DNA of 64,000 nucleotides from a virus, in IMG/VR virus record IMGVR_UViG_3300042542_004122, positions 1-64,000 of that record. The stretch is one strand, 5' to 3'. Every line of letters begins with the position of its first letter. The stretch's first letter is position 1. The notes beneath the pieces were generated by a model. It saw only the letters and a list, made by a program, of their open reading frames with translations, did not search any database and was not told the origin of the DNA. The translations under genes were made by a program, and so were the position numbers. Shown here piece after piece: positions 16,732 through 47,450 of the stretch.

Positions 16732-18205
16732 TTTGTTTTTTGTAAATTGTATTGCCTACTACCAACACATCTATGTCTGTTGATTTAAATAAGTTCATGG
16801 CATTCTCAATCCAGCCTGCTATAGGTTTTCCTGCTTCGTTAAGGCTTGTGTTTAATAATAAAGGGCACCCCGATAGTTCATGGAAAACTTCTAACAATTT
16901 TCTAAAAGCATAGTCAAACGATTCATTGACAGTTTGAGCGCGACAAGTTCCGTCGACATGAGTTATAGCTTGTAAATTATCTTTTTGTGTTGTGCCTAGA
17001 TAAAGCATATACGGATTTTCAAAATCTAGATCAAAATATTCTTTGCCATACTCTTGCAAAACACTAGCTCCAAAAGGTCTGTAGTACTCTCTATTTTTAA
17101 CCCTATTAATTATATCTTTTCCATTTTTAATTCTTGGGTCCATTAGTATAGATCTGTGCCCTAATGCTCGTGGACCTATCTCACCATGTCCTTGATACCA
17201 TGCAACAATTTTACCTTCATTTAAAAATTTAGCTGTTTGATATATGGTATCAATAGTAGGTTGGCTATGTGGAGACTGATCAGACTGCATGAATGGATAT
17301 CTAGACATATTAAACTTAGGTAAATTTTTTGATTGTCTAAATAGTTCAAGTGTTCCAAAAGTTAATCCCTCATCGCTGCAATGTGGATATATTATGAGAT
17401 TGGGGTATTTTTTCTTTAACAACGTATTCCAAACAACATTTTGTGCTACTCCACCTGAATAGCCTATTCTCTCATGCGGTTTGAAATGTTTTTCAAAAAA
17501 TTCTAGTAGTAATTCGCCTATTCTAAAATGAATAGTGTGAGCAATATCTAATTTTTGTTGCAGAGGTAATGTTCTATCAACAAAATATAAATGATCGTCA
17601 GATGCAACTGTCCATTTCCAAGGTCTGTCTTTACGCATACCTTTAACTGCAGTGCTAGTATAGTTCATGTTGTACTTTAAAAGATTTTCATAATGTTTCA
17701 AATTTAATCTACCATAACTTTGCCAACCCATAAGTTTACCCGCAAGATCAAGGCCATGACCTTCAATATCTAAATAATTTGCTATTATCCCCAAACCGTC
17801 GCCAAAACTTACGCCAGAATTAGAGGTAAGTATTTGGCTTATAATTTTATCATCTCTAAAAATGCTACACCAAAGATCAGCGTTATCCCCTAATCCATCA
17901 ACTACTACATGAGCATCTATTTTTTCTTTTTCTAATATCTCTACACTATATGCATGCTTTCTATGATGCCCTTGATACTTTTGATGTTCTGAGTAGCTAA
18001 TATCTAAAAAGTTACCATTATATTTATTTTTACAATAAACAGCAATAAAATCTTGAATTTGAAATTCAACAGCGGACTTGCCAGTAATATAAAATCCAAA
18101 ATGTTTATTTTGTAAAAGCCTTTCAAATTTTAAATAGCCTACTTTAGTATTAAAATAAGCTATGGAAGCATCATGATAAGGATGTGATGCTACTATGCTT
18201 AACAT
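16724..18205 (-). CDS. NodU/TobZ-family carbamoyltransferase
   Basis: 493 aa from MLSIVASHPYHDASIAY. The N-terminal Kae1-like domain binds ATP/carbamoyl-adenylate (HDASIAY, GYSGGVAQNVVWN); the C-terminal YrdC-like domain carries GPRALGHRSILMDP and PLLLNTSLN. It transfers carbamoyl to hydroxyl groups of sugars or nucleosides. Next to a glycosyltransferase-like gene, so surface-glycan or DNA-base carbamoylation are both possible. Confidence 0.9.
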   Translation of the reverse strand: MLSIVASHPYHDASIAYFNTKVGYLKFERLLQNKHFGFYITGKSAVEFQIQDFIAVYCKNKYNGNFLDISYSEHQKYQGHHRKHAYSVEILEKEKIDAHVVVDGLGDNADLWCSIFRDDKIISQILTSNSGVSFGDGLGIIANYLDIEGHGLDLAGKLMGWQSYGRLNLKHYENLLKYNMNYTSTAVKGMRKDRPWKWTVASDDHLYFVDRTLPLQQKLDIAHTIHFRIGELLLEFFEKHFKPHERIGYSGGVAQNVVWNTLLKKKYPNLIIYPHCSDEGLTFGTLELFRQSKNLPKFNMSRYPFMQSDQSPHSQPTIDTIYQTAKFLNEGKIVAWYQGHGEIGPRALGHRSILMDPRIKNGKDIINRVKNREYYRPFGASVLQEYGKEYFDLDFENPYMLYLGTTQKDNLQAITHVDGTCRAQTVNESFDYAFRKLLEVFHELSGCPLLLNTSLNEAGKPIAGWIENAMNLFKSTDIDVLVVGNTIYKKQNV

Positions 18206-19148
18206 AATTTCTTGCACAACTTAGCAATCGATTCTGAATACGAGATTCTGAGTATAAAGCTCTTAGGTGTTTACTATACTTTAGATCGTCTATCAATCTT
18301 TTCAACATTTTCAATTGAGTATTTTTATTAATTTCAGATGTTAATCCTATATATTTTAAAAAGGTATTAATGTCTGAAAGTTCTTCTTCTTTATTGATTA
18401 GTGCTAAAAACTCTCTATGAAAACCAAAAACACTGATTTCACATTTGGTAGTATAAGTATTTAGTAATTCATATAATAGCCTGTAATTTTTATCAATCCA
18501 GAATTTTTTCCAAAATGTTCTATATTGTACTTTTAGTTCTATTTCATTAATAAAATTATCTGGTAAAAGATATGAGTAGAATAAAAATTCGCAAGGTTTA
18601 TCTTGATTAAGAAGAACATCAATCGCTTCTTCTATGTTTTCAATTTTATCTAGATACTTTTTTTGAACATAAAAAGGCGTATGAGGTGTTAGAAAATAGT
18701 CTAATGATTTTTTTTTAAAGTAGTTACTGTAATCATCTACACATTTTTTTGATGGAAAAATATCATGTGCATGTATAGGGCTAATATTACCTGAGCCAAT
18801 AGTATTTTTCCAATTTGAATAGCTACTATTTCTAATAAAAAAATTCAATGGACCTAGAAGGAGGTAATCACCATCTATAAACTGAGAAACAAGTATTTTA
18901 ATTCCCTGATGTCTAAACCATCCATTCTTATAAGAATTTACCTTTGCAAAATCTTTGACACTTAAAACTTTTACAGAATTTTTGTCTTTATAATATTTCT
19001 CAATTAAAACATTCCACTTTTCAAAATCTGTATATTCATTAATAATTATCCAATGAACATACGAATCTATAAATTTGGATATTGATTCTAGTTGAAGTTC
19101 AAAAACTTCAAAATCACGGTCACAAACAATAGTAACTATATTCAACAT
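18171..19148 (-). CDS. Glycosyltransferase-like protein, 325 aa
   Basis: MLNIVTIVCDRDFEVFELQLESI opening plus DGDYLLLGPLNFFIRN resemble DUF6492/GT-A nucleotide-sugar folds, in which an acidic pair holds the metal. Low-complexity Lys/Ile/Asn composition. Overlaps the carbamoyltransferase start by 35 nt, so the two products likely act on the same substrate. Confidence 0.55.
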   Translation of the reverse strand: MLNIVTIVCDRDFEVFELQLESISKFIDSYVHWIIINEYTDFEKWNVLIEKYYKDKNSVKVLSVKDFAKVNSYKNGWFRHQGIKILVSQFIDGDYLLLGPLNFFIRNSSYSNWKNTIGSGNISPIHAHDIFPSKKCVDDYSNYFKKKSLDYFLTPHTPFYVQKKYLDKIENIEEAIDVLLNQDKPCEFLFYSYLLPDNFINEIELKVQYRTFWKKFWIDKNYRLLYELLNTYTTKCEISVFGFHREFLALINKEEELSDINTFLKYIGLTSEINKNTQLKMLKRLIDDLKYSKHLRALYSESRIQNRLLSCARNYVKHSSITSLS

Positions 19149-23819: not shown

Positions 23820-23894
23820 TGGTTGCAGAGACAGGACTTGCACCTGTGGCCTTCTGGGTATGAGCCAGACGAGCTGCTTCTGCTCCACTCTGCG
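23820..23894 (-). tRNA. Initiator tRNA-fMet (CAT)
   Basis: Acceptor CGCAGAG/CTCTGCA with the unpaired C1-A72 that marks bacterial initiator tRNAs. D-arm GGAGCAG...CAGCTCG and anticodon stem TCTGG/CCAGA with loop CTCATAC. Close to the bacterial initiator consensus; only two consecutive G-C pairs border the loop instead of three. Confidence 0.88.
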
Positions 23895-23905
23895 TTATGA
23901 TACTT

Positions 23906-24007
23906 GATTGTGTGCATTTTTATGAGAATCGAACTCACTCAACTCCGAACGCGGCAGAGCTATTTACCATTATATCGGCGTGGCCTTTGCCTTCCATGCA
24001 CACAATC
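23906..24007 (-). ncRNA. tRNA-like element closed by 12-bp helix
   Basis: GATTGTGTGCAT/ATGCACACAATC enclose a core with T-arm GTGAG-TTCGATT-CTCAT, D-arm-like TAATGGTAAATAG and CTCTG-CCGCGTT-CGGAG. Loop position 33 is C, not T, and there is no CCA, so it is not a normal tRNA. Confidence 0.5.
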
Positions 24008-24101
24008 AAATATCATTGATACTTGTTTCCCGAATTTTACTCTCTGCGTTGTCGCCGCAGATCCTTCATCCGACAATGTTTTTCAAAACATCAACTTATA
24101 T

Positions 24102-24130
24102 ATAATACTAAAACTTAGAGCATCTAGCAA
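24102..24130 (-). promoter_or_regulatory. Promoter TTGCTA-17-TATTAT
   Basis: -35 24125-24130, -10 24102-24107; start of the fMet-to-Lys tRNA array. Confidence 0.75.
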
Positions 24131-24161: not shown

Positions 24162-24203
24162 AAAAATGCGATAATCTAGGTTACCCTAAACTATCGCATT
24201 TTT
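24162..24203. terminator. Bidirectional terminator
   Basis: 12-bp stem AAAAATGCGATA/TATCGCATTTTT with 18-nt loop. Confidence 0.75.
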
Positions 24204-24205
24204 GT

Positions 24206-24509
24206 AGGAAAGCTGAGATTACACTTTCTATATTAGCACTTCAAGAGGTACCCTCTATTTGCAGTAGAGGTTTTCTTGACATCCACCAGATGCCTGCTAA
24301 GGTCACCCAGTATACCAACAGTATCGCCTTTTAAAGTCTGGCAGTAGACTTGACGTTATACGCTACTCTATATTATACCGTCCGCTGACCTTGCGAGCCA
24401 TTAAGCCTTGCGAGCTACGAATTTTTTAATATAAACTGATTTCACCTTGCGGGTTACATCAGACCAAGTTCTCTTTCGAGCTTGGTATTAGATACCTTTC
24501 ACATATAAC
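24206..24509. other. Structured non-coding DNA
   Basis: No gene seen. Long-range repeats include AAGGTCA...TGACCTT (24299-24392), which enclose AAGTC...GACTT and GATAC...GTATAC hairpins like a distorted clover leaf. Several short CCTTGCGAG-type words recur near 24388-24450. Confidence 0.5.
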
Positions 24510-24627
24510 CGAGGCAGACTTTGCTTTTTTAAAACATTGACTGGATTTGAACCAGCGTCCGTTTGCTTCCAACGCAAATGCTCATCCACTGAGCTACAAT
24601 AATAACCTACTGCGATGTGCTGCCTCG
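24510..24627 (-). ncRNA. tRNA-Pro-like (TGG) core inside long helix
   Basis: CGAGGCAG/CTGCCTCG flank a core (24535-24604) with D-arm GCTC/GAGC, anticodon TTTGC-GTTGGAA-GCAAA and T-stem CTGG/CCAG. Acceptor pairing is poor and CCA absent. Confidence 0.55.
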
Positions 24628-25056
24628 TTGCTCCGTATGGTTTTGACATACAAAATACAACACACCACGTATCTTTCGCGACGCGCGCTACTCGATCGTA
24701 TTTTGCGACGATGTATAAGCATTTATAGCTTATCCACTACCGCTGATACTGCAAAAATGCCTTTAGTTGCTTAAACTTCAGACAGAGATGCTACCCTTTG
24801 TTCTACCAACTGCTAGATTGGTGTTGTAGTGAAGTCGGCACCACCCGTTACATTCCAATAACTTAGGTTCCCCTTTCGGGCCTATAAGCTATCGTTTTCT
24901 CACTACACCTAGTTCATTGTTACCTCCGTTGCCGAAGGCTAGGAACTGGGCTTGCTTAAGTGGGCCACTCGGAGAGTGGTGCGGTTATGTAGGGATTACC
25001 GCTTTTATCACATTACTGTGACTATCCTTATGGGGCTTAAGCGCCCCAACTCATTA
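24628..25056. other. Structured non-coding DNA
   Basis: No gene seen. Inverted repeats: TGTAGTGA...TCACTACA (24825-24907), CTTAGG...CCTATAAG, CCACTC-gga-GAGTGG, GCGGT...ACCGC and GGGGC...GCCCC. Looks like a chain of structured RNAs; family unknown. Confidence 0.5.
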
Positions 25057-25496: not shown

Positions 25497-25572
25497 TGGT
25501 GCCCCAGACAAGACTTGCACTTGTTTCCTTACCCTTACCAAGGGTCTGTTCAGCTATATGAACTTCAGGGGC
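25497..25572 (-). tRNA. tRNA-Thr (GGT)
   Basis: Anticodon loop TTGGTAA, acceptor GCCCCTG/CTGGGGC, CCA encoded. Confidence 0.9.
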
Positions 25573-26151: not shown

Positions 26152-26241
26152 TGGCGGAGTGATGGCGGAATCGAACCCCTGGCCCGTAGGCTCCAACCGC
26201 TTTCAAGGCGGTGCTAGTATCCCCGACTAGACATGCACTCC
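26152..26241 (-). tRNA. tRNA-Ser (TGA)
   Basis: Class II, anticodon loop CTTGAAA, discriminator G, CCA. First 15 nt overlap the end of the zinc-ribbon gene upstream. Confidence 0.92.
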
Positions 26242-46306: not shown

Positions 46307-46472
46307 CTACTTTAAAGGTCAAGTCGTAGAATTTAGTTATAATTACTGGTCCATCTATAATGAGGCTGGTAAGCTAATTCTGACTACTAAAGATAAAAAA
46401 TATGCTGAGGCTAAATTGCAACAACTAAATAAGGCTTTAGCAGACAAGATCTCGTTGATAGCAGCGAAATAA
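46287..46472 (+). CDS. Hypothetical protein, 61 aa, GTG start
   Basis: FQLKHNYFKGQVVEFSYNYW then YAEAKLQQLNKALADKI. The stop codon directly precedes the acceptor piece of the tmRNA. Function unknown. Confidence 0.5.
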   Translation: MFQLKHNYFKGQVVEFSYNYWSIYNEAGKLILTTKDKKYAEAKLQQLNKALADKISLIAAK

Positions 46473-46730
46473 GCATACTGGACACGGGGGCAGTGCCCGT
46501 CATCTCCACCATAAATATGTCGATTAGTAAACATTGACATATTTATAATGGGGATGAATTAGGATCGACAGGTGTGTAAAGGTTGAAGTAGAGATAGGTG
46601 CGCGAGCGACCTCTAATCGCAAGAAATCAATAAATGCTAACGATAATAGCATCGAAGAGATCCGCCTAGCGGCATAACTTCTGCGGTATGGGCTCCACCG
46701 TATTACCCAACGGGCCTATTCCTTTTAGAA
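46473..46730 (+). ncRNA. ssrA: Circularly permuted (two-piece) tmRNA
   Basis: Acceptor piece: GCATACTG, T-arm ACGGG-GGCAGTG-CCCGT, then CATCTCC-A-CCA (46501-46511). A 38-nt intervening segment folds as TAAATATGTC...GACATATTTA. The coding piece starts GGGGATG (46550-46556), which pairs perfectly with CATCTCC including G3-U70, the alanine identity pair. CAG(G)TGTGT pairs with GCATACTG as helix P2. The tag frame 46636-46677 reads ANDNSIEEIRLAA plus stop. Rescues stalled ribosomes and tags nascent chains for proteolysis. The 3' end is approximate. Confidence 0.92.
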
Positions 46731-46739
46731 AGATTTTTA

Positions 46740-47450
46740 ATGTTTATTTATTGGAGAGTATGCGAATTACAAAAATCTATTAGCTACGTTAATAGATGGA
46801 AAAACTATAACAAAACAGACATCTTAAAAAGATGCTGGTTATCAGTTCAGAGTAGCGTATCTCCAGACGATCAAATCTATCTAATAGAAGATAATGTAAC
46901 CCATGAGACTTTAACTTGGTTAAGAGAGACGTGCAAAGCAAAGCTAAGTATCATACACGTACCAGAACATGCATGGGAATATCATCAACATACAGTAACC
47001 TTGATAGATACGCTAGAATCCTCTGTTAAACAGTATGAGCAAGATGTTCATCTTATTTTAGAAGATGATTATCTGTTTACTCCAAACGGATTAAATACTT
47101 TTAAGTTGTCCGCTGAAAATTGGAATCAAGGATTTATAGCTCCTTACGACTATATTGATAGATATAAAGAAATAAAACCCACTCAAGTTCTTTTAGGCCC
47201 AGATAGACATTGGCGTACAGTAGATAGTATTACTATGACTGTAGCAGCCAAAGGTTTTATCTGGGTTAAGTATTTAAAAGACTTAAAAGATGCAGCTCCT
47301 ACCAGCAATGATAAAGTCTTCGATAAGATTTTATCTGAAGTGCCATGTATCTCTCCAATGCCTTCTTTATGCAGTCATCTTACCGAACATCATAATAGTC
47401 CTTACATGGATATAGAAAATATCTGGAAATATTACGAGAACAATCTATGA
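46740..47450 (+). CDS. Glycosyltransferase-like protein, 236 aa
   Basis: RCWLSVQSSVSPDDQIYLIEDN and VHLILEDDYLFTPNGL (DxD-like EDD) indicate a GT-A fold related to GT2/GT25 enzymes. First gene of a tightly overlapping glycan cluster, ATGA to the epimerase. Confidence 0.7.
   Translation: MFIYWRVCELQKSISYVNRWKNYNKTDILKRCWLSVQSSVSPDDQIYLIEDNVTHETLTWLRETCKAKLSIIHVPEHAWEYHQHTVTLIDTLESSVKQYEQDVHLILEDDYLFTPNGLNTFKLSAENWNQGFIAPYDYIDRYKEIKPTQVLLGPDRHWRTVDSITMTVAAKGFIWVKYLKDLKDAAPTSNDKVFDKILSEVPCISPMPSLCSHLTEHHNSPYMDIENIWKYYENNL

Follow-up and report, generated by a model that had tools for sequence, protein, structure and literature searches.

We examined a stem-closed, tRNA-like element at 23906-24007 on the minus strand of a 64,000-nt stretch of viral DNA (positions 1 to 64,000 of IMG/VR record IMGVR_UViG_3300042542_004122; hereafter the window). 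The element occupies a slot between a leader motif and a tRNA gene. A near-identical phage fills this slot with a different stem-closed RNA, and distant phages carry, in the same setting, a family of stalk RNAs whose stalk pairs covary. We read the element as a co-transcribed small RNA cassette, released by RNase P, with an exchangeable payload that may act as bait, an interpretation to which we give about an even chance.

A stem-closed element with tRNA-like parts

The initial annotation described T-arm, D-arm-like and anticodon-arm-like parts closed by a 12-bp outer helix (GATTGTGTGCAT/ATGCACACAATC) in place of the acceptor. This helix is found where it was claimed and forms the inner part of a 21-bp helix, with 21 nt per arm (23897-23917 with 23996-24016) and a spacing of 78 nt; no inverted repeat of this type scores higher in the window. 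The element and its parts are as follows.

23897-24016, minus strand: stem-closed tRNA-like element (inverted repeat; fold z -4.7)
24016-23996 / 23917-23897, minus strand: stalk arms of the element, with the payload at 23995-23918
23922-23938, minus strand: T-arm, GTGAG TTCGATT CTCAT (sequence, geometry scan)
23943-23959, minus strand: anticodon-like arm, CTCTG CCGCGTT CGGAG, with C33 and 'GCG' (geometry scan, fold)

The minus-strand fold of the element reaches -40.5 kcal/mol (z = -4.7), and none of 200 shuffles folds equally well. For the outermost ~9 bp of the stem a second pairing is available, as CAAGTATCA recurs just upstream at 24025; the 12 bp named initially are unaffected by it.

The sequence and a geometry scan bear out the T-arm, which is perfect; the scan and the fold bear out the anticodon-like arm, with its 5 bp and 7-nt loop. 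The 4 nt between them correspond to cloverleaf spacing in tRNA, and the combined geometry, expected by chance 0.025 times per 64 kb, occurs outside called tRNAs at this one place in the window. The D-arm-like part is present but weak, with a poor D-stem. The T-arm and D-loop resemble tRNA-Gly, and the payload core is closest to T4 tRNA-Gly, scoring 46 against a maximum of 31 among 60 shuffles. The replacement of the acceptor and the absence of CCA also hold: the 21-bp stem stands where a tRNA has a 7-bp acceptor, and the element carries no CCA, which is encoded by 27 of the 28 tRNAs called by ARAGORN in the window (the exception is embedded in GOLLD, an RNA discussed below). Lacking CCA as well as a normal acceptor end, the tRNA-derived payload domain is predicted not to be chargeable. 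The tRNA model RF00005 leaves 23906-24007 unreported even at E ≤ 1, short of the Rfam gathering cut-off. An IMG/VR search with the junction DNA of the T-arm and 3′ arm returned no homologues, and comparison of the element DNA with phages gave only chance or tRNA T-arm matches. Among candidate payload homologues, a match in Fowlmouth was rejected, as it seems to be the T-arm of a tRNA missing from the annotation.

Slot exchange and a family of stalk RNAs

The surroundings of the element, all on the minus strand, define the slot.

23820-23894, minus strand: tRNA-Met, whose 5′ end (a predicted RNase P cut site) lies 2 nt past the stem
24069-24091, minus strand: boxA-like leader motif GATGTTTTGAAAAACATTGTCGGA, with ACATTGTYGGA common to the stalk-RNA operons of distant phages
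24102-24130, minus strand: promoter-like TTGCTA-17-TATTAT (consensus match)
24162-24203, minus strand: terminator-like hairpin and T-run after GOLLD, parting GOLLD from the element unit (inverted repeat, sequence)

Locus L018, from a phage with 98.8% identity to the window over 19 kb, diverges from it after CTGCGG in the leader and is alike again at tRNA-Met. Between these points L018 holds an RNA that is unrelated to the window payload and is closed by 26-nt arms (z -5.8); the stems of both phages end 2-3 nt before tRNA-Met. Because the window retains the 5′ arm of L018 as unpaired leader, the sequences suggest that the window form of the slot may be the newer of the two. A search with the leader sequence returned L018 and one chance match in an unrelated phage region (L052).

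Long-armed structures (arms of 20-25 nt) were first sought in the tRNA clusters of distant relatives; a paired-arm pattern and then a 5′-arm pattern followed, yielding 17 loci with both arms. The stalk of this family (~24 bp) has the sequence TTGTTTCTTCATGGAT / ATCTTTGWAGAAACAA, in which one U-U mismatch and one G-U pair are fixed. Its letters served as the search pattern, which in part accounts for their conservation. The inner pairs lay outside the pattern and covary, with 12 cells changed on both sides and as many in none of 500 shuffles. The payloads (50-106 nt, about 11 types) show no similarity beyond shuffles except for one type common to L049, L060 and L069, in which a T-arm-like hairpin and an anticodon-like hairpin (loop YTGATCA) are kept while the stems have changed. 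We considered a permuted tRNA for the payload of L049 and L060 and rejected it, as the arm order (T, anticodon, other) fits no permutation. An integron attC-like site was likewise set aside, since the core boxes do not fit.

All family loci share one order: a boxA-like motif GCTGTTTGACATTGTTGGAA, which we take to resemble the boxA of rRNA operons, then the stalk RNA, sometimes an RNA of ~200 nt, and then tRNAs. The stalk runs straight into the tRNA in L055, L104 and L128; at most other loci a conserved stem-closed RNA of ~200 nt (GGTGTTATGGAAAAT...CATAACACC; L033 3615-3814, L034 4351-4550, L049 3353-3550 and others) lies between the stalk RNA and the first tRNA. Rfam gave no match for the stalk RNAs or for the ~200-nt RNA. 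Against an expectation of 1.3 in 2.68 Mb of strands, 17 copies of the leader motif ACATTGTYGGA are present. One occurrence is a chance match and the rest are stalk-RNA leaders (a few loci overlap), including those of the window and L018, which had not been found through this motif. Because the ACATTGTYGGA leader is common to both, the reported element is tied to the stalk family by location and architecture rather than by the sequence of the stalk, and it shows the same slot order of leader, stem-closed RNA and tRNAs.

The Lys-like and Pro-like RNAs and other RNA genes

The initial annotation grouped the element with similar designs at 12806-12883 (Lys-like) and 24510-24627 (Pro-like). The three form a set in a loose sense; they are not homologous, and one of them is the known GOLLD pseudo-tRNA. 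The corresponding features are listed here.

12806-12883, minus strand: tRNA-Lys(UUU)-like RNA without CCA, the Lys-like member (covariation with L063)
12655-12804, minus strand: structured RNA between the Lys-like RNA and tRNA-Gln (stems changed and still paired in L063)
24210-24668, minus strand: GOLLD RNA, conserved 3′ domain (RF02032, 205 bits, model 1-416)
24532-24603, minus strand: tRNA(Pro)-like domain within GOLLD, without CCA, the Pro-like member

The Lys-like design was confirmed and is strengthened by covariation. A same-shaped RNA lies at the corresponding place on the L018 contig (locus L063), beside an identical tRNA-Ala. In this comparison of two sequences, 10 of 23 pairs are changed on both sides and 97.8% remain paired (all but one cell), and controls with a slid register collapse. 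This divergence was most likely acquired by recombination, so the counts do not represent independent in-place mutations. The loops are fixed: anticodon CYTTTAA (CTTTTAA in L063), T-loop TTGGAGT and D-loop AAYCATA. Of the tRNAs at these loci that end in CCA (255 in all), 254 carry T at position 33 and 246 carry C at position 56; position 56 is truly G in none, the lone G looking like a register shift. Because its stems covary, its loops are fixed, its elbow is abnormal against these 255 tRNAs and CCA is absent, the Lys-like RNA appears to be a maintained RNA that is neither a working tRNA nor a decaying one. Ordinary tRNA-Lys genes are also present in the window phage and in L018. A swapped G19-C56 elbow pair was considered; the aligned D-loop reads C18 A19, so that only C18-G56 could pair. 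In the adjoining RNA at 12655-12804, the motifs GAGACC..GGGCTGTATTTT and AGTCGAAATAC are fixed in L063; it has no Rfam match at gathering score.

The Lys-like RNA could plausibly serve as a decoy. PrrC accepts a 17-nt Lys stem-loop as a substrate for cleavage and tolerates a missing ACCA (PMC3014915), AriB of PARIS cuts tRNA-Lys(UUU) (PMC12409363), and phages escape PrrC with the help of a phage tRNA-Lys (PMC11555353). Since tRNA-Lys is the target of both systems and the Lys stem-loop is cleaved by PrrC, this interpretation fits the Lys-like RNA well. For the reported element it is weakly supported, anticodon GCG and C33 being a poor fit: a known-target anticodon loop is present in both copies of the Lys-like RNA (CYTTTAA) and absent from the element (CCGCGTT).

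The Pro-like interval at 24510-24627 did not stand as a similar standalone design; it is a helix of GOLLD RNA that holds the known pseudo-tRNA. The anticodon of the GOLLD-embedded tRNA is TGG in the window (24532-24603) and TGA in L018 (3379-3450), one base apart.

The window sits in the 72.2-kb record of a myovirus-like aquatic phage. A neighbouring 684-aa protein matches proteins from Methylophilales phage Melnitz and from Pelagibacter phage HTVC008M at 35-39% identity; the carbamoyltransferase and the neighbours at 18171-19148 retrieved no relatives as search bait. Two minus-strand clusters, at 10.2-13.0 and 22.9-26.5 kb, together hold the 28 ARAGORN tRNAs. An amber suppressor-type tRNA with anticodon CTA at 11618-11691 (minus strand) is similar to one in L033 and L034. 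ARAGORN missed two tRNA-like genes on the minus strand, at 25500-25572 (Rfam tRNA, 43 bits) and at 26156-26241 (Rfam tRNA-Sec model, 36 bits; probably tRNA-Ser). A phage tmRNA lies at 46419-46768 on the plus strand (Rfam permuted tmRNA model, 124 bits; tag ANDNSIEEIRLAA), and a weak local match to a tmRNA model (28 bits) falls within a tRNA cluster at L071 511-601 (plus strand). HNH-type endonuclease-like genes adjoin tRNAs at L018 1637-2360 and L063 2170-2750, and not in the window.

Interpretation and comparison with known systems

Our preferred interpretation places the element in the following pathway. The promoter-like sequence just upstream of the element unit, past the terminator-like hairpin that follows GOLLD, would start a transcript comprising the boxA-like leader, the stem-closed RNA of ~120 nt, tRNA-Met and further tRNAs. 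RNase P cleavage at the 5′ end of tRNA-Met would leave an RNA whose 3′ end lies 2 nt beyond the stem. The 21-bp stem would join the RNA ends, and would either protect the RNA or be trimmed by RNase III, giving a stable product. The slot would stay fixed while its contents are swapped between phages, the content here being a tRNA-derived domain. This payload would be a stable bait to which another molecule binds, most probably an enzyme recognizing or cutting tRNA parts; taken alone, the bait function is a tentative proposal. The suggestion in the initial annotation of new small RNAs or processing substrates remains a prediction; it draws support from where the element lies, from its structure and from the other stem-closed RNAs that take its place.

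Four observations weigh against this interpretation. With anticodon GCG and C33, the element is no mimic of any usual bacterial tRNA. The promoter at 24102-24130 is a consensus match only, and such matches number 5 in the region against 3.5 expected. The payload has no homologue in IMG/VR or the phage collection, hence the element itself comes without covariation. Finally, the conserved family stalk does not occur in the window or L018, which have other stem sequences.

The main rival is a leader-processing structure, in which the stem acts like the leader-trailer helix of rRNA operons (cut by RNase III) and encloses an idle payload that drifts and is freely replaced. This would account for a conserved stalk around a payload that is not, and for the boxA-like motif and long stem found at the head of the operon in all cases examined; boxA and leader-trailer helices of >17 bp are both features of rRNA operons (PMC10250234). 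However, the payloads are compact folds, those of L049, L060 and L069 keep their stems through double changes and their YTGATCA loop fixed, and a non-functional loop need not be wholly replaced between phages that are 98.8% identical. We regard this explanation as possible, though on the unlikely side.

A decayed tRNA-Gly pseudogene lying by chance in an inverted repeat, the fallback of the initial annotation, would fit the tRNA-Gly-like T-arm and D-loop, the poor D-stem, the odd C33 and the lack of CCA. Such a remnant would nevertheless have to sit within the top repeat of the window, and the Lys-like sister is under strong structural selection. Because of this 21-bp stem, and because the L018 slot is filled by an alternative stem-closed RNA, we consider a plain pseudogene improbable. 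Whole-cassette replacement, inverted arms and HNH-type genes within tRNA clusters on the L018 contig could instead point to an inverted-repeat cassette moving as DNA (MITE-like, or a recombination or homing site), with the RNA fold incidental. Against this, the element is single copy in the genome record (the ground on which a MITE was dropped), cassettes always lie in sense orientation between leader motif and tRNA, and the stalk has an invariant G-U pair and covariation, which together leave this possibility very remote.

Returning to the bait cassette, the exchange of payloads while the frame stays constant is suggestive of conflict or of a change of ligand. Near-identical phages retain the stem and leader and swap the contents, a signature of conflict, and function is testable for each payload. 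A broader reading, speculative and in our view doubtful, is that phage tRNA operons hold a dedicated slot for display, in which a constant leader and a long stalk present rapidly swapped payloads, uncharged tRNA mimics included, as modular counter-defence aimed at tRNA nucleases of the host or at other defences that sense RNA.

Small stable RNAs encoded in phage tRNA clusters go back to T4 (rnaC, rnaD) and have had no function assigned to them; a limited search of open papers returned no account of a stalk whose payloads are exchangeable. The T4 species 1 and 2 RNAs are likewise non-tRNA RNAs (119-139 nt) made within a phage tRNA cluster, and species 1, a stable RNA, ends in a perfect T-arm (CCGGG TTCGAAT CCCGG). 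They differ in that they show no sequence similarity to the element payload, fold without a long closing stem, sit at the far end of the T4 cluster and are conserved across T4-like phages (hundreds of records) rather than exchanged. GOLLD, the neighbour of the element, holds a CCA-less tRNA in a linker between its helices. Such a domain is mentioned in the GOLLD cryo-EM paper (PMC12286853) and is present in mycobacterial GOLLD, where its expression was not detected (PMC6582537). The element, in contrast, lies outside GOLLD, beyond its terminator-like hairpin, and matches no part of RF02032, whose match covers 24210-24668 only. Leaders of rRNA operons share the boxA-like motif and a long helix joining the ends of an excised RNA (PMC10250234), whereas stalk RNAs head tRNA operons and enclose a payload of ~50-110 nt instead of rRNA. 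Phage tRNAs that counter nucleases (PrrC, PARIS AriB, retron-Eco7) work as tRNAs, unlike the elements here, which lack CCA and, in the Lys-like RNA, normal elbow bases; phage tRNA-Lys restores infection against anticodon nucleases (PMC11555353, PMC12409363). The Lys-like RNA bears the Lys(UUU) loop targeted by PrrC and AriB and, with its compensatory changes and its loss of working-tRNA parts, is a direct candidate decoy for PrrC- or PARIS-type defences.
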